Below are positions 1-11,464 of a stretch of 64,000 nucleotides of DNA, one piece after another. Below the pieces are notes generated by a model. That model was not told the origin of the DNA and ran no database searches. It worked only from the letters and a program-made list of their open reading frames with translations. The DNA lies in NCBI GenBank assembly GCA_017512425.1, contig JAFWGI010000015.1, positions 186,001 to 250,000 of the forward strand, given 5' to 3'. Positions within the stretch are counted from its first letter, which is position 1; every line of letters starts with the position of its first letter. Origin of the DNA: Hyphomicrobium sp. (lineage in GTDB: Bacteria; Pseudomonadota; Alphaproteobacteria; Rhizobiales; Hyphomicrobiaceae). Both the position numbers and the translations under genes were made by a program.

Positions 1-2
1 AC

Positions 3-335
3 TGTGGCTTCAAAGGGCAGTGGGATACCCGTACGGCCAGGTGTAACGGCAAACGGAAACGTGTCACTGCGTCGCCAGCTATTGACGATGCCGCGGCACG
101 CTACAGACTCGCGCTTCTCGACGCGGCGCAGGTCGCGGATACCATCGCTGCCGATATGGTCGGTGCCGACCAGTCGCCCGATTTCGTGAACCGCTTGCAC
201 CAGTTGAGCAGTCAGATGCGCGCCTTCGCGGGGCATACGGCGCCGGCGTCGTTTGAGGATCTATCTCAGCCGAAATCGGCCAATCGTGCAGGCGCCGCTC
301 TGATGGCGATCATCCGCAAAGCGCGGTCGTGGTAG
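3..335 (+). CDS. 3' end of an unrecognised gene, cut by the window edge
   Basis: A reading frame is open from base 3 to a TAG at 333-335, giving at least 110 residues with no start inside the window that must be used. The C-terminal part is rich in Ala, Arg and Asp and looks helical (for example AAARYRLALLDAAQVAD), and a basic stretch CNGKRKR lies near the visible start. I do not recognise the family. It ends 42 bases before the start of the large Avs-like gene on the same strand, so it could be co-transcribed with it. Function unknown; the main support is an uninterrupted frame with plausible composition. Confidence 0.5.
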   Translation, partial: CGFKGQWDTRTARCNGKRKRVTASPAIDDAAARYRLALLDAAQVADTIAADMVGADQSPDFVNRLHQLSSQMRAFAGHTAPASFEDLSQPKSANRAGAALMAIIRKARSW

Positions 336-377: not shown

Positions 378-3300
378 GTGATGAGCCCATTGCGTAGACA
401 TTTTAAATCGAAGCAAAATCAAATGGCAGCAACGAGCGAGAATATTGGCGGCCTCTACAGCAAGCTCGGCAACCGCTACGAGGCGAAATGGCTGGTCCTC
501 AAGCTGCTTGAGGTTTTGAGTGGCAAGGCACGCAGCCTCAAGGTTGAAGGTGTCGGCCCGGAATTCGCCGGCTTTGAGGCTGCTGTCGGTTACGGCGACT
601 GCTTCGACTGGCATCAGACCAAGATCAATGCGCCGAACGGCAATTGGACTCTTGGTGCGCTTCGGCGAGAAGGCGTGCTCGACGCCTTCAAGCGGCGCCT
701 CGAGGCTTCACCGACCGACCGGTGCTGGTTCATATCACAAGATCCGGTGCGTGCTTTTCGCAACGTACCGAAGAAGGCACGCTCAACGGACGGCGAGGTC
801 GATTTCCAACGCCTGCTCAATAAGGAAGAGCGGGATGCCATCCACGAACTGGCGAGGCATTGGGGCACCGAACCGGACATCACGCGGCAATGGCTGGCGC
901 GCTGTATCTTTGAGATCGCAGGTGAAGACGCAATCCAGCGAGAAACAGAACTCTATCTTGATTGGTACTTCGAGGATGCCGCGAGCGCGTTCGCAGTTCT
1001 CCGCGACCACATCGAGCAGAATTTCAACAAGACGATCTCGACAGAGAAATTGCGGAGCGCACTGCGCTCAATCGCTGGCCTTAAGCTGAAACCGGAGGTG
1101 ATGGACCCGACCATTCTTGAGCGGATCAGACGCGAAACAGTCGACTACCTGAAAACTTATGTTCCATTCGGCGCCGACGGGCACACCATCGAAAGATCGC
1201 AGACAACGGTGGTTCACGATCTTCTGTCGCAATCTGGGGGCCCGACCATCGTGCTCCTCACGGGCGTGGCGGGCAGTGGCAAGTCAGAAGTGGTGCGTGG
1301 CGTTGTTGAGCAGCTTGAGCAGAGCAGCCTATTGACGCTCGCGTTCAGGGTGGACCAACACCTTGCCTGCAAAAATTCAAAAGACCTCGGAATTGATCTC
1401 ACCGGACGGGCCGAGAGCCCGGCATTGACGCTGGCACGGATATCTCCCGGCAAGACAAGCGTGCTCGTAATCGATCAAGTTGACGCCATTAGTGAAGTAT
1501 CCGGACGCAATGGCGCGGTGCGCGAGACCGTACTCCGTTTGCTCGACGAGGCCCACAATCTGAAGACCGTCCGGGTTCTCCTGGTGTGCCGCACATTCGA
1601 TCTCGACAACGATGCTCGGCTCAAGACCTGGAAGCAGGCCGCTCAAGTGATCGAGGTCGGAGTACCCCTGCTCGATTGGACAAACGAGGTTCAGCCGTTT
1701 CTCGTATTGCGCGGAGCGAGCACCGGCGCTTTGACCGCGGGTCAGAAGGACCTGTTATGCCTTCCCCTAAATCTGGCACTGTTTCTCGAGGCCTCCGGCG
1801 ATGATTTGTCGTTCGTCAGCCGCAACGACCTTTTTCTGCGCCTGCTGACAAAAAAGGAAAGAGCGATCGCTCAGGACCGGGTATTGGGATGGACGGCATC
1901 TGCGGCGCTGGCCGAGCTGGCTCGATGGATGAGCGACCGGCAGCGGCTCGATGCTCCGGCAAGCGTGCTTGACAGATATCCAAGAGCAACCGACTTGCTT
2001 GCTTCGGAGCATCTGGTCGTCAACGTGCGTGAGAAGCTCAACCTTTTCCACGAGAGCTTCTTCGATTTCCTCTTTGCCCGTCAGTTCGTTCATCAGCGGC
2101 AATCGCTGCATGATTTGTTAATGTCGACGGAGCAGCACCTTTTCCGCAGGACGCAAACCCGACAGATCCTCGAGGCCCTGCGGCAAGCCGACCGGCCGCG
2201 CTACCTGCGCGAGCTGACGGAGCTGGTGGAGAGCGGCACGATTCGCTTTCATATCAAGAACGTCGTCGCGCTATGGCTCGGAACGCTGCGCGATCCAACG
2301 TCGGACGAGTTCAACATCGTCTATCGACTCGATGATCCGGGAAAGGGGTTGCCGCTCATCGTGCGCGACGCGCTTCTGGGATCGTCGGGCTGGTTCGATT
2401 TGCTCGCTGCAGCCGGATGGATTGACCAGCAGCTTGAAAGTGTTGTCGAGGAGCGCCGAGAAGCCGTGTTCCGGTGGCTCGATCGAATGGCTGCTGAGCG
2501 CCCCAACGAGATCGCAGACCTACTCGAACGATGGTGGGGGAGCGATACTGCTCGCGGACGCATACTGCTTGGGTGGTTTCGTTTCGTCTCTAAAGGACCT
2601 GGAGACGAGGCGCTCGAGCGGCTGTGCGAGCTGGTCATTCGCAATACCCCAATCGATGCTAACTGGAACCCATTGGGCAAGAACAACATGCTTCTGCCGA
2701 AGTGGGTTGCTGAACGTAGGGAGCACGGCGGAACCATTCTGCGCGCATTGTTTGATGCCTGGTTTAAGGCCAACTCGGGCCGGCATCCGTTCGAGCGCGA
2801 CATCATTCAAGATATCGACGATCATTGGCTTAGCGAGTTAGCGAAAACCTCGCCAGAGGCCTTCCTCGAGGGCGCTGGCCCCGCCCTAGTAACGACTCTG
2901 ACCGTCATCGCAGCTAAGGAGGCGCACGGGGAGCGGGATTACACTTTCGATCGGCACCCTAGAGCCGGTGAGGTTTACGGAGCCGATGCATTTCTGGCGC
3001 TCTACCGAAGCTCGCTCTGTCAGCTTGCTGCCGATGCACCTGAGGTTGCGCGGGGCCTGCTCACGACGTTCGATCCCTCTCTCCATCTCTTCTTCCGACA
3101 CCTGCACTTGGAAACTATCGCGGCAAGCCGCGGCGCGCTCGGCCAGAACCTCGTGGCTCTCCTGAGCTTCCCGGATCTTGGCAAGGCCGGCTGGGCTGGT
3201 GTCCCGTGGTTGTCGTTGGCTAAAGCGGCTAAGGCCTCCTTGCCGTGTTTGGCGGAAGACGAGCGGAAGCAGCTGGAAGCGTATTTGATTGCTCTAAACG

Positions 3301-5021
3301 GTGAGCTGTCGGACGCACGCGATCTGGTTCATGAGATACGGAAGAACGGCGAGGACGGATGGCGCAATCGGAAATACTTGATGCACCTGCTGTCGCGATC
3401 AGGCCATGCGCGGTGGTGCGTGTTGAAAACGGTCGGGCCTCAGCAGCTGTCCGCCACGGGGCAGAAACTGCTCGATGAGGGTGATCGCAAATTCCGCGGC
3501 GAGACGGTGCCGGAAGCCGATCGCATGCGCGGCGGCTGGGTCCATTCCCCAATCGCCAGAGAGCGGGCAGCATTCATGAGCGATGTCCATTGGCTCAAGG
3601 CGATGAAGACATACGACAGCGGCCGTAAGGAGGATCGGCGCGATATTCTGGCCGGCGGCCCGTCGCAACTCGCTGGCGAGCTGCAGCATCTAACGAAGAC
3701 TGATCCTCATCGGTTCGTCGCTCTGATGCCGCGCATCCCTTACACGGCGAATGCCGTCTATATCGACAACATTCTGGGCGGGTTGGCCGAGAGCATTGAT
3801 GTTGTCACCCCGATCCTGAAGGAGGCTGTGCTGCATGCGCACGGCCGCTCGGTCCATCAGCACGCAAGCGCGATCGTCAGGATCTTCGAGCGGCACCCGA
3901 GCCTCGCCGAAGATGCCGAGATGATGGCGTTACTGTTCTGGTACGCCAAAAACGCTGAGATCGGAGCGGATGCAGCGATCGACATTGGTTCGGAGAAGGA
4001 CATCGTTACTATTGATGATCTGCTGGATAGGGGAGCGCGGCTCCACGTGCGCGGCATCAATGGTCCGCGCGGCGCAGCGATGGAGGCCCTTGGTCAGGTG
4101 CTCTGGCAGGTGCCTTCCGCCATCGAGCAGGCTTGGACACTGCTTGATGAGCGCATCGCGTGTGAGCAGTCCATCGCGGTCCGCTGTTGCATGACGCGGC
4201 CGTTAACACCGCTCTTCAACGCGGATCGGCAGAGATGTGCCGCATTATTCGAGAAATTGCCGCTGAGCACGACAGACGATACAGGAGCGGACGCCGATGA
4301 TTTCGATCGTGGTCTCGCCCCGCTCGCCACATATGAAGCGACTCGGCTAATGCCGTACTTTGTCCATCAAGTCCCCGAGGCGGGTCGGCGTCTCGTCGAC
4401 CGGCTTCTGGCGTCGCGCAGTGAGACGTTCCGTCGGATCGGCGCCTGGCACGCGATTGGAGCGAGCTTCTCGATCGAAAGCTACGCCGGAATCGCCGACC
4501 TCCTCGTCGAGGAAAGCGTTGAAATCCGCCGCCTTGCCGCGGCCACCGCTGCAGGTGCTGCAGAGCATCAGGAGTTCCGGGGCCGGGCGGAAAGCTGGCT
4601 CAAACGGTTCTTCGATGATCCGGACAAGCTCGTGCGCGGACAGGCCGCCGACGTATTCCGTGGCATTGAAAGTACAGATTTCGGCAGGTTCGTGCCGCTG
4701 GCCAAGGCGTTTCTCGACAGCCTCGCCGCGATCGATTCCTCCTGGAGCTTGCTGCATGCGCTCGAAAGCGCGACGTGCGACACGCACGGGCTTGTCGTAA
4801 AGGCGGCTGTACGACTGACGACTGACCTCGATGCCCGCGGCACGGCCGGTGGCCGGCATATGTCGGAGCTTCACACTCTTCAAGACCTTATACGCAGAGA
4901 CTATGCGGCCTCGGAAGGGAACGCGGCGCTTCGCACGCAACTGCTTGATGTCATCGATCGCCTGCTCTCGGGAGGTTACTATGGTGTCGAGGCGATTATA
5001 AAAGCGCACGAAAGAAGCTAG
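378..5021 (+). CDS. Avs-like STAND NTPase with N-terminal Cap4/DUF4297-type nuclease domain
   Basis: The protein has 1547 residues from the GTG at 378; an in-frame ATG at 423 (residue 16) still lies before the conserved region. Residues 23-215 resemble the Cap4/DUF4297 dsDNA nuclease fold: YE at 34-35, an acidic pair D74/D77, QTK at 80-82 and WT at 90-91. Residues 285-575 form a STAND/NACHT-like NTPase: Walker A GVAGSGKS at 296-303, Walker B VLVIDQVD at 362-369, a sensor-like LLVCRTFD at 401-408 and the STAND-typical HESFFDFLFARQF at 558-570. The remaining 960 or so residues are helical, with HEAT-like repeats toward the end. In known antiviral STAND proteins such C-termini sense phage proteins and release the N-terminal nuclease. 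The domain order is visible; the antiviral role is inferred from architecture and from its place beside recombinase elements. No partner gene is needed in that family. Confidence 0.75.
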   Translation: MMSPLRRHFKSKQNQMAATSENIGGLYSKLGNRYEAKWLVLKLLEVLSGKARSLKVEGVGPEFAGFEAAVGYGDCFDWHQTKINAPNGNWTLGALRREGVLDAFKRRLEASPTDRCWFISQDPVRAFRNVPKKARSTDGEVDFQRLLNKEERDAIHELARHWGTEPDITRQWLARCIFEIAGEDAIQRETELYLDWYFEDAASAFAVLRDHIEQNFNKTISTEKLRSALRSIAGLKLKPEVMDPTILERIRRETVDYLKTYVPFGADGHTIERSQTTVVHDLLSQSGGPTIVLLTGVAGSGKSEVVRGVVEQLEQSSLLTLAFRVDQHLACKNSKDLGIDLTGRAESPALTLARISPGKTSVLVIDQVDAISEVSGRNGAVRETVLRLLDEAHNLKTVRVLLVCRTFDLDNDARLKTWKQAAQVIEVGVPLLDWTNEVQPFLVLRGASTGALTAGQKDLLCLPLNLALFLEASGDDLSFVSRNDLFLRLLTKKERAIAQDRVLGWTASAALAELARWMSDRQRLDAPASVLDRYPRATDLLASEHLVVNVREKLNLFHESFFDFLFARQFVHQRQSLHDLLMSTEQHLFRRTQTRQILEALRQADRPRYLRELTELVESGTIRFHIKNVVALWLGTLRDPTSDEFNIVYRLDDPGKGLPLIVRDALLGSSGWFDLLAAAGWIDQQLESVVEERREAVFRWLDRMAAERPNEIADLLERWWGSDTARGRILLGWFRFVSKGPGDEALERLCELVIRNTPIDANWNPLGKNNMLLPKWVAERREHGGTILRALFDAWFKANSGRHPFERDIIQDIDDHWLSELAKTSPEAFLEGAGPALVTTLTVIAAKEAHGERDYTFDRHPRAGEVYGADAFLALYRSSLCQLAADAPEVARGLLTTFDPSLHLFFRHLHLETIAASRGALGQNLVALLSFPDLGKAGWAGVPWLSLAKAAKASLPCLAEDERKQLEAYLIALNGELSDARDLVHEIRKNGEDGWRNRKYLMHLLSRSGHARWCVLKTVGPQQLSATGQKLLDEGDRKFRGETVPEADRMRGGWVHSPIARERAAFMSDVHWLKAMKTYDSGRKEDRRDILAGGPSQLAGELQHLTKTDPHRFVALMPRIPYTANAVYIDNILGGLAESIDVVTPILKEAVLHAHGRSVHQHASAIVRIFERHPSLAEDAEMMALLFWYAKNAEIGADAAIDIGSEKDIVTIDDLLDRGARLHVRGINGPRGAAMEALGQVLWQVPSAIEQAWTLLDERIACEQSIAVRCCMTRPLTPLFNADRQRCAALFEKLPLSTTDDTGADADDFDRGLAPLATYEATRLMPYFVHQVPEAGRRLVDRLLASRSETFRRIGAWHAIGASFSIESYAGIADLLVEESVEIRRLAAATAAGAAEHQEFRGRAESWLKRFFDDPDKLVRGQAADVFRGIESTDFGRFVPLAKAFLDSLAAIDSSWSLLHALESATCDTHGLVVKAAVRLTTDLDARGTAGGRHMSELHTLQDLIRRDYAASEGNAALRTQLLDVIDRLLSGGYYGVEAIIKAHERS

Positions 5022-5028
5022 CTGAGTG

Positions 5029-5063
5029 CTGGCGCCGACTAGGCATTTGCAGCCGAAAGCATG
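5029..5063. repeat. Left boundary motif of unit A
   Basis: TGGCGC at 5029-5034 and CCGAAAGCATG at 5053-5063 correspond to TGGCGC at 8199-8204 and CCGAAGCATG at 8238-8247 in front of unit B. The T-arm-like sequence present in the second copy is missing here, so this copy is degenerate. Confidence 0.4.
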
Positions 5064-5115
5064 TCTAACACGTGGGGCCGCTTGCCGCATCCGTAAGGGT
5101 CGGCCGTCGATGCCA

Positions 5116-5272
5116 GAACCGACTGGACTTCGCCGCGGAAGCACGCATTGGTGTCCGTGACGGTAGCCACTGAAGTGGATTGACCGGAGACAAGGGTCAG
5201 CCTCGCAGAACGCGGGGCTTTGGGTGGTGGGAGCGCCAACTATGGCACTCCGAAAACCACGGTGCCCTCGTC
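5116..5272 (+). promoter_or_regulatory. Conserved structured leader of unit A
   Basis: About 150 bases before the DUF3489 start codon are related to the leader of unit B. The best block runs 5212-5237 and differs from 8415-8440 at one of 26 positions; an earlier shared patch includes CGCATTGGTG. Reading it as protein in either direction is not needed to explain the conservation. GGCAC at 5244-5248 can pair with GTGCC at 5262-5266, and the GGTGGTGGG at 5223-5231 can pair in part with ACCAC at 5256-5260, just before the ATG. It probably controls translation or contains a recombinase binding site. Confidence 0.55.
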
Positions 5273-5644
5273 ATGACCACAAAGACAATCGACAAATCCA
5301 CCAAATCGGAACGGTCGCCCGTTGCACCACGCGTGTCCAGCAAGAGCGACAAATCTAGCCGAGCTCAGGCAGCGACTGCGACCAAGGCTCGCAAACGCGA
5401 GGAGACGCCCGAGCAGCAATCCGGCCAAGCGCCAACGACAAAGCGCGCACAGCTGCTCGGACTTTTGAGCCGTCCGGAAGGCGCGAGCATTGAGGAGTTG
5501 ATGCGCGCCACTAATTGGCAGCAGCACAGTGTTCGCGGCTTTCTGGCCGGAACGGTTAAGAGAAAAATGGGTCTCGCGCTGACCTCGTCCAAGGTCGACG
5601 GTGAGCTTAGGCGATACCGGATCGCCGCACGCCGGGGCCGCTGA
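5273..5644 (+). CDS. DUF3489 family protein, unit A
   Basis: A 123-residue protein. The ATG at 5273 is chosen because it matches the start of the unit B homologue (MTT) and because the sequence upstream aligns with the noncoding leader of unit B. The N-terminal half is low complexity and rich in Lys, Ser, Thr and Ala. The conserved C-terminal 65 or so residues (RAQLLGLLSR to the end, including TNWQQHSVRGFLAGTVK) are typical of DUF3489 and look like a winged helix-turn-helix. The stop is followed one base later by the DUF2924 start. DUF3489 has no assigned biochemical role; DNA binding is inferred from the fold-like pattern and the basic tail. Confidence 0.8.
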   Translation: MTTKTIDKSTKSERSPVAPRVSSKSDKSSRAQAATATKARKREETPEQQSGQAPTTKRAQLLGLLSRPEGASIEELMRATNWQQHSVRGFLAGTVKRKMGLALTSSKVDGELRRYRIAARRGR

Positions 5645-5645
5645 G

Positions 5646-6095
5646 ATGGCCAAGCTAGCCCTTGATGTCGGCGCGGAGATCGCGCGGCTTGAGCAACTCA
5701 CGCTCGATGCGCTTCGCGAAGAATGGCGGCGGATACATCAGACGCCGCCGCCGCGGCGATTGAGCCGGGACATGCTGCTGCGCGGGCTTTCCTACAAGCT
5801 GCAAGAGGACATATTCGGCGGCTTGCCGAAGGTCCTTCGCCGAAATTTGCAGGCTTCCGACCCAAGCGTAACGTCACCGTCTGCTGAGCGGTCACTACGG
5901 GCATCGTTCAAGCCGGGCACGCGCCTCGTGAGGGAATGGCACGGTGTCACGCACACGGTCGTTGTCCTTGAGAATGGCGTCGAATGGCGGGGGAAGCACT
6001 ACAGATCATTGTCGGTCGTCGCGCGCGAAATCACCGGAGCTCACTGGTCTGGACCGCGGTTTTTCGGCCTTACGGCGGAGCGCACCGATGGATGA
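5646..6095 (+). CDS. DUF2924 family protein, unit A
   Basis: A 149-residue protein starting at the ATG one base after the DUF3489 stop; the corresponding start in unit B is at the same place. The N-terminal part (IARLEQLTLDALREEWRR, then LSRDMLLRGLSYKLQE) is helical and characteristic of DUF2924. The C-terminal part is a small beta-rich module (GTRLVREWHGVTHTVVV, then YRSLSVVAREITGAHWSGP) that resembles the RAMA-type module found beside DNA methylases; that comparison is by eye. The ATGGATGA at its end couples it to the next small ORF. Co-occurrence with DUF3489 and a recombinase suggests an accessory DNA-binding or directionality role, which is inference. Confidence 0.8.
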   Translation: MAKLALDVGAEIARLEQLTLDALREEWRRIHQTPPPRRLSRDMLLRGLSYKLQEDIFGGLPKVLRRNLQASDPSVTSPSAERSLRASFKPGTRLVREWHGVTHTVVVLENGVEWRGKHYRSLSVVAREITGAHWSGPRFFGLTAERTDG

Positions 6096-6288
6096 GCGCG
6101 CTCGCATCAAGTCCACAAGACTGGTCTTCGCAAGGGTAACAGGAGAAATGGAGGACGCATCGGTTGCTGCCGCTGAGGGGCAGGCCATTGCGGATCTCGC
6201 CACAGCACAACGTGCGTGTGATCGCCTAATCGTTCTCTTGGAAGTTTGTCTAAGGCGCCTACGTCGATTGCGACGGAGCCTCGGATGA
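6088..6288 (+). CDS. Small helical protein between DUF2924 and recombinase, unit A
   Basis: A 66-residue protein whose ATG overlaps the DUF2924 stop by 8 bases and whose TGA overlaps the recombinase ATG (ATGA). The residues after about 20 are predicted helical, ending in a very basic leucine-rich stretch (RRLRRLRRSLG). Its counterpart in unit B is 65 residues and sits in exactly the same overlapping position, although the sequences have diverged strongly. Conservation of position and of both overlaps is the main evidence that it is translated. Function unknown. Confidence 0.65.
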   Translation: MDERARIKSTRLVFARVTGEMEDASVAAAEGQAIADLATAQRACDRLIVLLEVCLRRLRRLRRSLG

Positions 6289-8012
6289 CGCGTATCGCTT
6301 GTGCAATCTACACGCGCAAATCGACCGACGAAGGGCTTGAGAAGGAATTCAATTCTCTCGATGCTCAGAGAGAGGCCTGCGAAGCGTATATCACGAGTCA
6401 GAAGCATGCCGGTTGGACTGCCGTTCGCGACATGTATGACGATGGTGGCCTTTCCGGCGGAACGATGGAGCGTCCCGCGCTGATGCGTCTGCTCACCGAT
6501 ATCAAAGCGGGAAAGGTGCAGATTGTCGTTGTCTACAAAGTCGACCGGCTGACGCGATCTCTTGCTGACTTCGCCAAGATCGTCGACGTGCTTGACGCTC
6601 ACGGCGCCTCATTCGTCTCGGTGACGCAGCAGTTCAACACGACGACATCGATGGGCCGTCTGACGCTCAACATGTTGCTCTCCTTTGCGCAGTTCGAGCG
6701 CGAGATCGCTGGCGAGCGGATACGCGACAAGATTGCGGCGTCGAAGGCGAAGGGTATGTGGATGGGCGGCACTGTTCCGCTCGGATACGACGTCAAAGAT
6801 CGCAAGCTGCTCGTCAACGAGACCGAAGCCAAACTCATTCGAAGAATCTTTTCGCGATACGCAGAGTTCGGCTCAGTGAGCCTGCTTCAGGCGGAACTCG
6901 ACACTCAAGGCTATCGCAGCAAGCGCCGCGAAGGCGCCAACGGACGTTCGAACGGTGGTCGACGTTTCTCGCGCGGGATCCTGTATCTCATCCTGCAGAA
7001 CCCGCTCTATCGTGGCAAGGTCGCGCATAAGGGGAATGTCTATGATGGCCAGCAAGAGGCGATCATCGATGCAAAGCTGTGGGACTTGGTTCAGGCCAAA
7101 CTCGCATCGAACCGGACGGAGCGCGCACTTGCCGTTGGGGCCGAAGCACCAAGCCTACTCTCGGGCCTAATCTTCGATAGAGATGGCAATCACATGACGC
7201 CTACCCACGCGAACAAGCGTGGCAAACGCTATCGCTACTACATCTCGGCGCCACTGCTGGATCGTGGAACCCCTGGTGAAAACCCCATTCGCATCCCGGC
7301 GCTGGAGGTCGAAGGATTAGTCTGTGACCGCCTCCGAAACCTGCTTGCACGGCAAACAGAACTCGTTCGGCGGTTGTCGCCTCTTCATCTGACCGTCACT
7401 CAGCTCGAGGTGTCTCTCAGGACGGCCGCCTCATTGACGGGATCGTGGACATCACTCCCGCCTGATGAAATCAAGGCATTCGTGCAGGACGCTGTCGATC
7501 GCGTAGTCGTGCAACCCCGCGAGATAGAAATCACGGTTTCGGTTTCGGGTCTGGCGCGGCGTCTTGGTGCCAAACTCAAGATCGAGCGTAGTGTTGTCGA
7601 CGAGACCTTTATACTGCATGTCGCCGCGCATCTCCGAAGTGCCTGGAAGGGCAAACGGATTATCGTTGGTGAGCAGATCGGCCCTAAGCCCGATCACCAA
7701 TGCCTCAAGTTGTTTCGGGAGGCTTTTGCGGCGCGTGCCCTGGTTATCTCGGAAGGCAACGAGAGCCTTACTGCGATTGCGAGGCGACTTGGGAAGTGTC
7801 AGGTCCGGCTCACCGGGCTGGTTCGCCTGTCCTATCTGGCGCCGTCGATCGTCGAAGACTTGGTCTCGGGGAGGCATCCGATCGGGCTGTCGGCCAAGCA
7901 GCTCTTGCGCCGCTCGAAAGACCTGCCGGTGGACTGGCAGCAACAACGCAAATTCCTCGGGCTTGCGGAGGCCGTTCCAGCACCGTTCGCTCGTGCGTTT
8001 CCTGGCCGCTGA
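6285..8012 (+). CDS. Large serine recombinase, unit A
   Basis: A 575-residue recombinase, started at the ATG that overlaps the small ORF stop; this gives the same N-terminal spacing as the unit B enzyme. The resolvase-type catalytic domain holds the nucleophile Ser13 in YTRKST, the active-site arginine region VDRLTRSLADF, and the helix SFAQFEREIAGERIRDKI. The recombinase domain follows (VPLGYDVKDRKL to about residue 280), with the motif ILYLILQNPLYRGKV. The usual zinc-ribbon region (GLIFDRDGNHMTPTHANKRG) has lost the paired cysteines, as in many alphaproteobacterial relatives. It would cut and exchange DNA at att sites to move or excise the unit. The enzyme looks intact. Confidence 0.9.
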   Translation: MTRIACAIYTRKSTDEGLEKEFNSLDAQREACEAYITSQKHAGWTAVRDMYDDGGLSGGTMERPALMRLLTDIKAGKVQIVVVYKVDRLTRSLADFAKIVDVLDAHGASFVSVTQQFNTTTSMGRLTLNMLLSFAQFEREIAGERIRDKIAASKAKGMWMGGTVPLGYDVKDRKLLVNETEAKLIRRIFSRYAEFGSVSLLQAELDTQGYRSKRREGANGRSNGGRRFSRGILYLILQNPLYRGKVAHKGNVYDGQQEAIIDAKLWDLVQAKLASNRTERALAVGAEAPSLLSGLIFDRDGNHMTPTHANKRGKRYRYYISAPLLDRGTPGENPIRIPALEVEGLVCDRLRNLLARQTELVRRLSPLHLTVTQLEVSLRTAASLTGSWTSLPPDEIKAFVQDAVDRVVVQPREIEITVSVSGLARRLGAKLKIERSVVDETFILHVAAHLRSAWKGKRIIVGEQIGPKPDHQCLKLFREAFAARALVISEGNESLTAIARRLGKCQVRLTGLVRLSYLAPSIVEDLVSGRHPIGLSAKQLLRRSKDLPVDWQQQRKFLGLAEAVPAPFARAFPGR

Positions 8013-8198
8013 CCCGCAAACGCAAGTCCCCGAAATCGCCGAACAGAGACGCGACCGGGTTTCGGCCCGCAAACGGCGGTCTCGGACGTCTCTTTGGCGG
8101 TAACGGAATGTGCGGTAGCCGCTAACTCGCGGAAAGTCGGGGGGAAGTCGGCGCTGGCGTAAAGCCAGCCGTGACGTCTCTACACCCTTAAAGTGGAC
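8013..8198. other. Noncoding tail of unit A
   Basis: No convincing gene. A CTAACTCGCGGAA at 8122-8134 has a near copy (CTAACGCGCGGAA, 11312-11324) in the tail of unit B, and each lies about 64 bases before the following TGGCGC junction. This argues that the two tails are homologous. Confidence 0.5.
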
Positions 8199-8250
8199 TG
8201 GCGCTTCGAGCATGATTCGAACCTGAAGCATTCACTTCCGAAGCATGCTC
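8199..8250. repeat. tRNA-Arg 3'-end-like junction between units A and B
   Basis: Bases 8199-8225 match 22 of 27 bases of the tRNA-Arg 3' end at 11388-11414, including TGGCGC (which covers the encoded CCA) and GATTCGAACCTG. An inverted repeat, GAGCATG at 8208-8214 and CATGCTC at 8244-8250, frames the site. The T stem could not form, so this is not a working tRNA. It fits an old attachment-site junction. Confidence 0.45.
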
Positions 8251-8321
8251 CATGGCGTTTCATCGAGCCGCAAGACTCGCTATTAACTGACCCGTCCAGG
8301 ACGCGCTTCTCCAGCCGATTT

Positions 8322-8478
8322 TGAACTCGACTTCTGCCGCAAAGGACGCATTGGTGGTGTGACAGACGCCGGCGATAAGGGTGCCGAAAATTTGCAGGGC
8401 TCGCCTCGCGGATTGCGGGGCTTGGGGTGGTGGGAGCGCCGATAGGGCGCGACCCGTGAACCCTCGGAGCCCACCACC
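8322..8478 (+). promoter_or_regulatory. Conserved structured leader of unit B
   Basis: Related to the leader of unit A, with a 26-base block at 8415-8440 that has one mismatch. GGTGGTGGG at 8426-8434 is exactly complementary to CCCACCACC at 8470-8478, which ends at the base before the ATG. Inside it GCGCC at 8436-8440 pairs with GGCGC at 8446-8450. The outer stem would bury the ribosome-binding region of the DUF3489 gene, suggesting translational control of the whole operon. Confidence 0.6.
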
Positions 8479-8844
8479 ATGACGACAATTGAAGCCCGCG
8501 CCGCAAGTCAGACAAAACGAGCCACACCCTCGACGTTGGCCAAAGCGGCCAAAGCGAAGGCAATTGGGACGTCGACTACGGCCAAACTCACCTCTGTCAA
8601 AAACGCCGCAAGAGACGACGTGCACGCGGCACGCGTCACCAAGCACGATCGCATTCTGACATTGCTGAGCCGGCGCGAAGGCGCGACCGTTCCGGAAATG
8701 ATGGAAGCGACGGGATGGCAGCAGCACAGCGTGCGCGGCTTTCTCGCCGGCACGGTCAAGAAGAAGCTCGGCTTCACGATGGCCTCGTCAAAGGCACCGG
8801 GCGAATTGCGTCGTTACCGCATTGAAGCCAAGCGGGGCCGCTGA
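8479..8844 (+). CDS. DUF3489 family protein, unit B
   Basis: A 121-residue protein with a Lys/Ala/Thr-rich N-terminus and a conserved C-terminal module (LTLLSRREGATVPEMMEATG, then WQQHSVRGFLAGTVKKK). It is clearly homologous to the unit A protein at 5273-5644. The ATG directly follows the 3' arm of a 9-bp perfect inverted repeat, so its translation may be switched by leader structure. Its stop is one base from the GTG of the DUF2924 gene. The role is unknown; the winged-helix-like C-terminus suggests a DNA-binding regulator. Confidence 0.8.
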   Translation: MTTIEARAASQTKRATPSTLAKAAKAKAIGTSTTAKLTSVKNAARDDVHAARVTKHDRILTLLSRREGATVPEMMEATGWQQHSVRGFLAGTVKKKLGFTMASSKAPGELRRYRIEAKRGR

Positions 8845-8845
8845 C

Positions 8846-9304
8846 GTGAGGAAAGCAAAACTCGACGTCGCGGCTGAGCTTGCGCGGCTCGAAGCGTTGA
8901 CAAGCTTCGACCTGCGCGGCGAATGGCGGCGGCTGCACGGAATGCAGCCGCCAAAGCGCCTCTCCCGAGATCTCATGATCCGCGGCATCACATACAAACT
9001 GCAGGAGCGGGCGTACGGCGGCCTCGCCAAGTCTGTGCTGCGCCGGATTTCCGGGGCGGAGCTTGAGACGTTGTCAAAATGTGAAAACCGCAAAGCTCCT
9101 CGTGTGACCGTACAGCCGGGCACGCAGCTGGTTCGCGAATGGAATGGGCAGACGCACACCGTTCTCGTCCGCTCCGACGGCGTCGAATGGCGCGGCAAGC
9201 GCTACCGGTCGCTGTCGGTCGTCGCACGCGAAATCACCGGCGCGCACTGGTCGGGTCCGCGGTTTTTTGGCCTGACTTCGAGCAAGGGGGCCAGCGATGG
9301 CTGA
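8846..9304 (+). CDS. DUF2924 family protein, unit B
   Basis: A 152-residue protein. The GTG at 8846 is chosen because it is one base after the DUF3489 stop, as in unit A, and gives the matching N-terminus (RKAKLDVAAELARLEAL). The helical N-terminal region with LSRDLMIRGITYKLQE and the beta-rich C-terminal region with GTQLVREWNGQTHTVLV and YRSLSVVAREITGAHWSGP are shared with the unit A protein. The final 20 or so conserved residues are nearly identical in the two units. It overlaps the next small ORF by 8 bases (ATGGCTGA). Function unknown, likely linked to recombinase action. Confidence 0.8.
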   Translation: MRKAKLDVAAELARLEALTSFDLRGEWRRLHGMQPPKRLSRDLMIRGITYKLQERAYGGLAKSVLRRISGAELETLSKCENRKAPRVTVQPGTQLVREWNGQTHTVLVRSDGVEWRGKRYRSLSVVAREITGAHWSGPRFFGLTSSKGASDG

Positions 9305-9494
9305 CAGCCGTCTCGATGCTGTCTGTGAGGCATTCGCTGAACTCACTGGCGCCCTTGAAGACGCGGCGCTCATCGCATCTGTCGGTCAAGGCGTCAAAAC
9401 GGTCGAGGACGGACGGCGTCAACTCCAGCTCATCTCGAAAGAGTTTGATCGGATCGGCCGCTGCCTCGACCGACTACAGGGGCTTCTCCGATGA
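9297..9494 (+). CDS. Small helical protein between DUF2924 and recombinase, unit B
   Basis: A 65-residue, mostly helical protein (LDAVCEAFAELTGALEDAAL, then FDRIGRCLDRLQGLLR). It begins inside the DUF2924 stop and ends inside the recombinase start (ATGA). Only weak similarity to the 66-residue unit A protein is visible, but the position, length and overlaps are the same. That argues for a real translated gene evolving faster than its neighbours. No function can be assigned. Confidence 0.65.
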   Translation: MADSRLDAVCEAFAELTGALEDAALIASVGQGVKTVEDGRRQLQLISKEFDRIGRCLDRLQGLLR

Positions 9495-11179
9495 AAAAGC
9501 TGAACTGCGCCATCTACACGCGCAAATCGACTGAGGAAGGTCTCGAAAAGGAGTTCAACTCGCTCGATGCCCAGCGAGAGGCGTGTGAGGCGTACATTGC
9601 GAGCCAGAAGCATGCAGGCTGGTTTCCAGTCCGCGACATGTATGACGACGGTGGCCTTTCCGGCGGCACGATGGAACGGCCCGCGCTTCAGCGCCTGCTT
9701 GCCGACATCAAGGCCGGCAAGGCGCAGATCGTCGTCGTCTACAAGGTCGACCGGCTGACGCGCTCGCTCGCCGACTTCGCCAAAATCGTAGACATTATGG
9801 ACGCTCACGATGCTTCGTTCGTCTCGGTGACGCAGCAGTTCAACACGACGACGTCCATGGGCCGTCTTACACTCAACATGCTGCTCTCATTTGCTCAGTT
9901 TGAGCGGGAGATCGCGGGGGAGCGCATCCGCGACAAGATTGCGGCGTCGAAAGCCAAAGGCATGTGGATGGGCGGCAACGTTCCGCTCGGCTACGACGTC
10001 AAAGATCGCAAGTTGATCGTGAACGAGGCAGAAGCAGAGATGATCCGCATGATCTTCGGGCGGTACGCCGAGATTGGATCAGTTCGGCTTCTGAAATGCG
10101 CGCTGGACGAGCGCGGGATTGTAAGCAAGCGCCGTGCGAAAGCCGGTGTCGTGCGTGCAGGCGGCAACCGACTTTCCAGCGGCGCGCTTTATAACCTCCT
10201 GCGGAATCCGATCTACCATGGCAAGATTGGGCATCAGGGCAAAGTCTATCCAGGGCAACATGAGGCGATCATCGATCCCGACCTCTGGCAACGCGTCCAG
10301 GGCATGCTTGCTGGCAGCCTGTATGCCCAAAAGATTGGGGCGGCAGCCGAGGAGCCGAGTCTGCTTGCCGGGCTGATCGTGGACGGCGACGGGCGCCGCC
10401 TGAGACCGATGCATGCCGTTAAAAAGGGCCGCCGTTACCGGTACTACGTGTCGCCACCGTTCAAGAGCGCCGAGCGAAAAGCTTCCGACGGCTGGCGCAT
10501 TCCTGCGGCTGACATTGAAGAAATTGTCCTCGATCGCCTCCGCACGTTCTTTGCCTCGGAGCAGGGCGTTGAAGAGGCCTTGGTATGCCTCGACCTTGAC
10601 GACGTCCATCTTCGGTCGGCCCGTTTAACGGCAACTGGTCTCGCCGAAGCTTGGTCAGACTTGTCGTCGATCGAAATTCGTGAGCTTGTCCAAGCTTTTG
10701 TTGAGAAAGTCGTCGTAAGCGAACAAGGGGTTGTCGCTTCGATCAAACGGGCGGCCGTTGCATCTCGCCTGCTGGACAATTGTAGACCGCCATTGGAGGG
10801 TGAAGCCGGTACGATCGAACTGCGCGTCGAAGCCAAGCTGCGCCGCGCGGGCCAAGGAATTCGGTTGGTCATCTGTGGCGGCGTGGAAAATCCCAATAAG
10901 CAGATGATTGCCCTGCTGCGAGATGCGCACGCAACGCGTGAGTCGCTTTTGACTGGACGCGATGCAACGATCGACGCGATGGCGCAGCGGCTTGGTGTCA
11001 AACGAGACCATCTGACAGCGCACATTCGCCTGACGTATCTCGCGCCGCACATCGTGTTTGCGCTGGCGACACGTCGCCCGCCAGTGGGACTGACTCCCGC
11101 GCGTCTGCTCTCGGTGTGCAAAGACTTGCCGCACGACTGGCAGGGCCAGTGCGCAGTCCTCGGACTTGAGACGCGATAG
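9491..11179 (+). CDS. Large serine recombinase, unit B
   Basis: A 562-residue resolvase/invertase-type recombinase. Ser13 in YTRKST is the expected nucleophile; VDRLTRSLADF and SFAQFEREIAGERIRDKI complete the catalytic domain; VPLGYDVKDRKL opens the recombinase domain. The region LLAGLIVDGDGRRLRPMHAVKKG stands where a zinc ribbon is normally found but has no cysteine pairs. The C-terminal DNA-contacting part differs strongly from the unit A enzyme while the catalytic part is almost unchanged, so the two may recognise different att sequences. The start overlaps the small ORF stop. Confidence 0.9.
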   Translation: MKKLNCAIYTRKSTEEGLEKEFNSLDAQREACEAYIASQKHAGWFPVRDMYDDGGLSGGTMERPALQRLLADIKAGKAQIVVVYKVDRLTRSLADFAKIVDIMDAHDASFVSVTQQFNTTTSMGRLTLNMLLSFAQFEREIAGERIRDKIAASKAKGMWMGGNVPLGYDVKDRKLIVNEAEAEMIRMIFGRYAEIGSVRLLKCALDERGIVSKRRAKAGVVRAGGNRLSSGALYNLLRNPIYHGKIGHQGKVYPGQHEAIIDPDLWQRVQGMLAGSLYAQKIGAAAEEPSLLAGLIVDGDGRRLRPMHAVKKGRRYRYYVSPPFKSAERKASDGWRIPAADIEEIVLDRLRTFFASEQGVEEALVCLDLDDVHLRSARLTATGLAEAWSDLSSIEIRELVQAFVEKVVVSEQGVVASIKRAAVASRLLDNCRPPLEGEAGTIELRVEAKLRRAGQGIRLVICGGVENPNKQMIALLRDAHATRESLLTGRDATIDAMAQRLGVKRDHLTAHIRLTYLAPHIVFALATRRPPVGLTPARLLSVCKDLPHDWQGQCAVLGLETR

Positions 11180-11387
11180 CCGCCACACGACTTACTGTAA
11201 ACGATGCGAATCTGACCGGCCGAAAATTGGCGGCAGAGATAAAACGGGCAATCAGCCGGCGTGCGTGACGGAGAGACGGACCCTTATGCGCGACGGAAAA
11301 AACCCAGGCCTCTAACGCGCGGAATTTGCGGTGAATTTTTGCACGCAGAAATCGCGTAATATGCAGTTATATCAATGTGTTATATCT
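11180..11387. other. Noncoding tail of unit B
   Basis: No gene seen. It carries CTAACGCGCGGAA at 11312-11324, matched in the unit A tail, and an AT-rich stretch at about 11355-11387 just before the tRNA-Arg 3' end. Confidence 0.5.
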
Positions 11388-11464
11388 TGGCGCACCCGGC
11401 AGGATTCGAACCTGCGACCTCTGCCTTCGGAGGGCAGCACTCTATCCAGCTGAGCTACGGGTGC
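11388..11464 (-). tRNA. tRNA-Arg (anticodon CCG)
   Basis: The reverse complement folds as a full cloverleaf: acceptor stem GCACCCG/CGGGTGC with discriminator G and an encoded CCA, a D arm with AGCTGGATAGAG, the anticodon arm CTGCC-CTCCGAA-GGCAG giving anticodon CCG for the CGG codon, and a T arm with GGTTCGAATCC. Its 3' end faces the recombinase units. tRNA 3' ends are common insertion sites for genomic islands. Confidence 0.95.

Follow-up and report, generated by a model that had tools for sequence, protein, structure and literature searches.

The gene at 378..5021 on the forward strand of the 64,000-nucleotide stretch of Hyphomicrobium DNA analysed here (the window, a portion of contig C6 of a 3.45 Mb genome) very probably encodes a nuclease-armed antiviral STAND receptor, which resembles the Avs proteins in design and belongs to a separate sequence family. 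The protein consists of an N-terminal Cap4-like nuclease, a central STAND/NACHT NTPase and a long C-terminal alpha-solenoid that we presume to be the sensor. By the sequence comparisons made here, the family is widespread, is built like known Avs and NLR-type phage sensors and is without a name in PADLOC or NCBIfam.

Architecture of the protein

The reading frame is intact and without interruption, in agreement with the single 1547-residue protein described in the initial annotation. This length is counted from the GTG at 378, as are all residue numbers used here and in that annotation; translation more likely starts at the ATG at 423 (residue 16), since the homologs open with MxxGGIADKLGNRYE.

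The nuclease occupies about residues 24-215 (447..1022, + strand). The predicted structure of the N-terminal half of the protein (residues 17-700, pLDDT 85.8) places its first 220 residues on Cap4 (7yib and 7yia) and on Hachiman (8zue) with a Z-score of 14.4 and an rmsd of 3.4-3.5 Å in each case, and the nuclease region matches 8dgc at Z 13.8. The fold is thus that of a Cap4-like PD-(D/E)xK nuclease, as had been proposed for residues 23-215, and the lack of a Cap4 structural match that was to have counted against that proposal did not arise. The QTK motif at residues 80-82 also stands, with K82 present in 25/25 and Q80 in 22/25 aligned sequences. The aspartates D74 and D77, which had been put forward as the nuclease acids, vary among the homologs; the conserved acids are instead residue 67, which is E or D throughout the nuclease-bearing aligned sequences (as GFE or GVD), together with E35 and E57. 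Across about 30 aligned proteins E35, E57, G65, Q80 and K82 are invariant or nearly so, and the homologs share the spacing E/D67-(12 to 14)-Q80-x-K82, an arrangement typical of PD-(D/E)xK enzymes. In profile searches the window protein passes no nuclease model and clears only a general AAA cut-off. It has no match to PF14130 (cut-off 26.2 bits), which is matched by two of 23 family members (best E 4.5e-4) and scores 15.5 bits on a relative from Nostoc (L009). The related nucleases Cap4, DUF4297, Hachiman HamA and LmuA are partnered with SAVED, HerA-binding or helicase components, whereas here the nuclease is fused to a STAND module and a sensor.

The STAND/NACHT NTPase, defined by its motifs and fold matches, spans about residues 243-650 (1104..2327, + strand). 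The motifs first read from the translation of the gene hold up well in the family alignment. The Walker A motif (GVAGSGKS, residues 296-303) has G296, G299, G301, K302 and S303 invariant or near-invariant in about 30 aligned proteins, and D366, Q367 and D369 of the Walker B motif (VLVIDQVD, 362-369) are shared by every family member in the alignment. In the winged-helix histidine motif HESFFDF (558-564), H558 and D563 are invariant. To these the alignment of about 30 proteins adds C404, R405, F407, D408 and L409 of CRTFDL (404-409), Q586, L588 and R591 of QxLxRR (586-591), and R623 and H625, all of them invariant or near-invariant. In the predicted structure about 370-400 residues of this part superpose on NLRP9, NLRP3, NLRC4 and NOD2 (Z 19-22); NLRP9 and NLRP3 score 21-22, with NLRP9 at 22.2. 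The best Foldseek match is Avs4 (E 5e-13), and Avs3 aligns across both nuclease and STAND module (Z 13.8). The Pfam NACHT score is sub-threshold; P-loop Walker A and B motifs, NACHT fold and winged-helix histidine together place the protein in the STAND/NACHT superfamily.

The remainder, about residues 651-1547 (2328..5018, + strand), is the presumed sensor. Structure prediction gives an all-helical solenoid for the C-terminal half (residues 600-1547, pLDDT 83), which bears out the 960-residue helical region noted initially. Its best fold matches are to HEAT/ARM proteins, PP2A-A and importin among them, mainly over residues 1050-1547, with Z-scores of up to 15.4 that for repeat proteins show a common arrangement only. 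HEAT/ARM proteins dominate these matches in a search that leaves room for a TPR match, and Avs chains are not listed in the comparison of this C-terminal model, which is no proof of their absence. Four positions stand out in the aligned homologs: R1112, R1231 and Y1509 are invariant and D1527 is near-invariant.

Relatives and effector exchange

The closest solved protein by sequence is an 'AAA family ATPase' of 1523 aa deposited as three PDB entries (9n00, 9n01 and 9yix). It is matched at E 5e-22 by the single sequence and at 1.5e-35 by a five-sequence profile, through the nuclease and STAND modules and weakly along a C-terminal stretch. Both proteins thus have a nuclease region with QxK, a STAND core and a weakly similar C-terminus in the same order, but identity is low and most of the sensor shows little similarity. 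A literature search found no publication for 9n00, and its chain is absent from the fold-library matches.

Full-length relatives at 42% identity were found in Rhizobium phaseoli and Sinorhizobium in a plasmid search. The nearest homologs are alphaproteobacterial, and a genome scan recovered 34 loci from many phyla, including Pseudomonadota, Planctomycetota, Aminicenantes, Spirochaetota, Myxococcota and Chloroflexota. Conservation across these homologs, at about 20-46% identity, far exceeds chance. The distribution is patchy (3/289 genomes in the class sample, 5/297 in the order sample and 5/398 in the phylum sample, own genome counted; none of the other same-genus genomes sampled has a homolog) and so resembles that of horizontally moved defence genes. 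We searched for phage-borne relatives and relatives on viral contigs and found none.

The effector is exchanged within the family. A PNP_UDP (purine-nucleoside-phosphorylase-type) domain replaces the nuclease at three loci (L003, L078 and L079), and a caspase domain replaces it in a cyanobacterium (L072); the family profile nonetheless meets the STAND module and solenoid of these four proteins at E 1e-87 to 1e-110. The Nostoc relative L009 retains the nuclease, with a match to LmuA at 6e-10. This joining of the same STAND-solenoid to a phosphorylase or a caspase elsewhere is strong evidence, at the level of sequence, that residues up to about 220 form an effector module and that the remainder is switch and sensor. 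Together with the 9n00 relative and the fold matches, it upholds the layout of nuclease, STAND module and helical sensor originally proposed. The phosphorylase-STAND-solenoid proteins are about 1750 aa long. The caspase-STAND-solenoid gene (L072:3684-8813) lies on a conjugative cyanobacterial plasmid, with another caspase gene and a trypsin-like peptidase gene next to it.

The initial annotation likened the protein to the antiviral STAND (Avs) proteins, and in design this is correct: the structure predictions and fold matches give an N-terminal nuclease, a STAND core and a long C-terminal repeat sensor, as in Avs1-4 (AVAST) and mainly as in Avs3 and Avs4. The difference lies in the solenoid, which matches HEAT/ARM proteins best. 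Kinship in sequence did not hold. With the cut-off at E<=10, the profile retrieves Avs2 alone among these proteins, at E 0.91 over about 118 residues around the P-loop, so that homology does not extend beyond this region, and the profile points to 9n00. No Avs model was matched in PADLOC or NCBIfam searches, whose libraries were without a positive control for Avs models. Sequence homology to the solved Avs proteins was tested and failed, and we do not claim membership of Avs.

A comparable DNase effector on a NACHT-like switch, in the same tripartite layout, is found in bNACHT25 and bNACHT32, clade 6 bacterial NACHT proteins with a PD-(D/E)XK DNase (PMC12169576); the window protein, with its sub-threshold NACHT score, is likened to them by layout. 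It has no convincing match to any PADLOC or NCBIfam defence model. The nearest models are PDC-M54A and EruA, both of them weak and reached by homologs rather than by the window protein itself. Homologs match the unnamed PADLOC candidate PDC-M54A at 1e-9 to 1e-13 in the STAND part only, and the window protein is unlisted at E<=1. EruA (NF058535, cut-off 1000 bits) is matched weakly and partially, in the STAND/NACHT region, by three of five family members (best E 1.6e-5), and the window gene is absent among the matches of its own genome up to E 10.

Genomic neighbourhood

The STAND gene closes a cluster of antiviral genes. A CBASS operon on the same strand (L044:17933-19835, in window coordinates about -1567 to 335) immediately precedes it. 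It comprises a CD-NTase (PADLOC E 1.8e-130), a 2TM effector and a small Zn-ribbon-like protein, with overlapping reading frames. The last of these genes encodes 135 aa and begins before the window, which holds its 3' part (1..335, + strand); 42-87 bp separate the operon from the start of the STAND gene. A complete Hma system (HmaC, HmaB and HmaA, L044:6740-17066) with a WYL regulator beside it, also just upstream of the window, occupies the opposite strand. HmaC carries a HEPN_Swt1 domain, and a 196-aa protein whose family we did not recognise (L044:12772-13362) is encoded between HmaA and HmaB. Farther upstream, an Mrr_cat restriction-endonuclease-like protein (L044:5350-6279) adjoins terminase-like and ParB-methyltransferase-like genes.

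The homologs keep similar company. At four loci just 0-42 bp separate the STAND gene from a preceding defence gene: it comes straight after HsdS in one type I R-M locus (0 bp, L018), 17 bp after HsdM in another (L029), 3 bp after AbiEii (L043) and about 42 bp after DrmC in a DISARM locus (DrmABC; L032, ATG 9986). At L011 it lies 148 bp after a TIR protein gene, and a Fic gene is also among the neighbours. At L005, L012 and L013 the STAND gene is alone among metabolic or housekeeping genes. These associations are a raw count over about 20 loci with no matched control. With CBASS and Hma at its own locus and DISARM, type I R-M and AbiE genes ahead of its homologs, the gene does associate with defence loci, and the lack of such conservation that the initial annotation had named as evidence against its proposal is not what was seen.

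Downstream, two DUF3489-DUF2924-serine recombinase cassettes lie in tandem between the STAND gene and a tRNA-Arg(CCG) gene (5030-11464; the tRNA at 11388-11464). Their proteins are 57-66% identical and the cassettes are 3.2 kb apart. The initial annotation set the distance between the STAND stop codon and the first recombinase unit at 7 bases; the next ORF, the first of the first cassette, in fact begins at 5180 (TTG), and at 5030 there is just a 6-nt TGGCGC, a weak tRNA-end core. Between the cassettes, at 8199-8225, sits a diverged copy of the tRNA-Arg 3' end (22/27 nt; the next-best site in the 33 kb scanned has 17/27), and its position supports successive integrations at tRNA-Arg as the probable origin of the array. 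The array looks like stacked integrations, which are unusual for serine recombinases. A genome-wide search with the 22-nt tRNA-Arg 3' end, in which as many as 2 mismatches were allowed, gave no second copy elsewhere. Same-genus genomes share the tRNA-polA side, while the opposite side varies in each of the seven compared; to the left of the tRNA there is no synteny over 19.5 kb with these seven, which largely differ among themselves. GC content does not mark an island (0.597 left of the tRNA and 0.598 right). The DUF2924 proteins (5601-6095 and 8822-9304) weakly resemble the RAMA domain known from restriction-associated proteins, at E 4e-4 and 2e-3.

Proposed mechanism and alternative readings

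We consider it likely that this single chain serves as an antiviral STAND receptor in which sensor-triggered oligomerisation pairs the nucleases, DNA is cut, and the infection ends with the cell. At rest the STAND ATPase would hold the protein inactive, probably in an ADP-bound form, as we infer from the conserved winged-helix histidine H558. An infection cue encountered by the HEAT/ARM-like solenoid would lead to nucleotide exchange and thereby to oligomerisation of the STAND modules, and the oligomers would pair the N-terminal Cap4-like nuclease domains as active dimers. These would then cut dsDNA, of phage and host alike, in an abortive response, so that the infected cell probably dies or is arrested as its DNA is shredded. 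Oligomerisation, DNA degradation and the abortive outcome are proposed by analogy with Avs3, DUF4297-HerA and bNACHT25. Tetramerisation of Avs3 switches on nuclease dimers and the DUF4297 nuclease of DUF4297-HerA cleaves dsDNA (PMC11291478); the bNACHT25 nuclease degrades DNA upon infection (PMC12169576); Avs1-4, on which the oligomerisation and DNA-degradation steps draw, are summarised in PMC12931631.

The sensor may recognise a phage protein, as the initial annotation suggested. With the effector unchanged, it may instead guard a host factor or the partner defence operon, or read a phage anti-defence attacker, rather than bind a structural protein of the phage, and the close placement of the STAND gene behind type I R-M, AbiE and DISARM genes, here after the CBASS operon, would suit such a role, as would the indirect detection of phage by bNACHT25 via DnaJ (PMC12169576). 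The partner operons are, however, wholly different among homologs, three loci have no such operon at all, and no common guarded partner is evident; we regard this possibility as somewhat unlikely. A more specific version, in which a portable receptor with swappable effectors has repeatedly been placed at the tail of antiviral operons of unrelated kinds (CBASS, DISARM, type I R-M and AbiE) and acts as a second-line guard when a phage disables or evades the operon, is quite unlikely in our estimate.

Position alone might also suggest an extra CBASS effector triggered by the cyclic nucleotide of the adjacent CD-NTase, given the short same-strand gap and the fact that Cap4 is itself a CBASS effector family. 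But SAVED and CARF models find no match in the window protein, the operon already owns its 2TM effector, and the CD-NTase is absent from every homolog locus examined, which leaves this reading highly improbable. Service to a mobile element, by exclusion of a rival plasmid or element or by maintenance, would agree with the occurrence of homologs on plasmids and beside integrases and, here, with the nearby tRNA-Arg site and its two recombinase cassettes; no antitoxin partner is conserved alongside, however, and the neighbours that can be named are mostly antiviral, so that a role of this kind in place of phage defence seems very unlikely.

The probable antiviral STAND receptor described here points to a widespread family of STAND immune receptors that is unnamed in current defence annotation and combines a HEAT/ARM-like solenoid sensor with at least three swappable effectors. 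The deposited structure of a relative offers a close experimental handle, and the family allows one to ask whether the long alpha-solenoid sensors of bacteria read phage proteins or guard components of the host and its defences.
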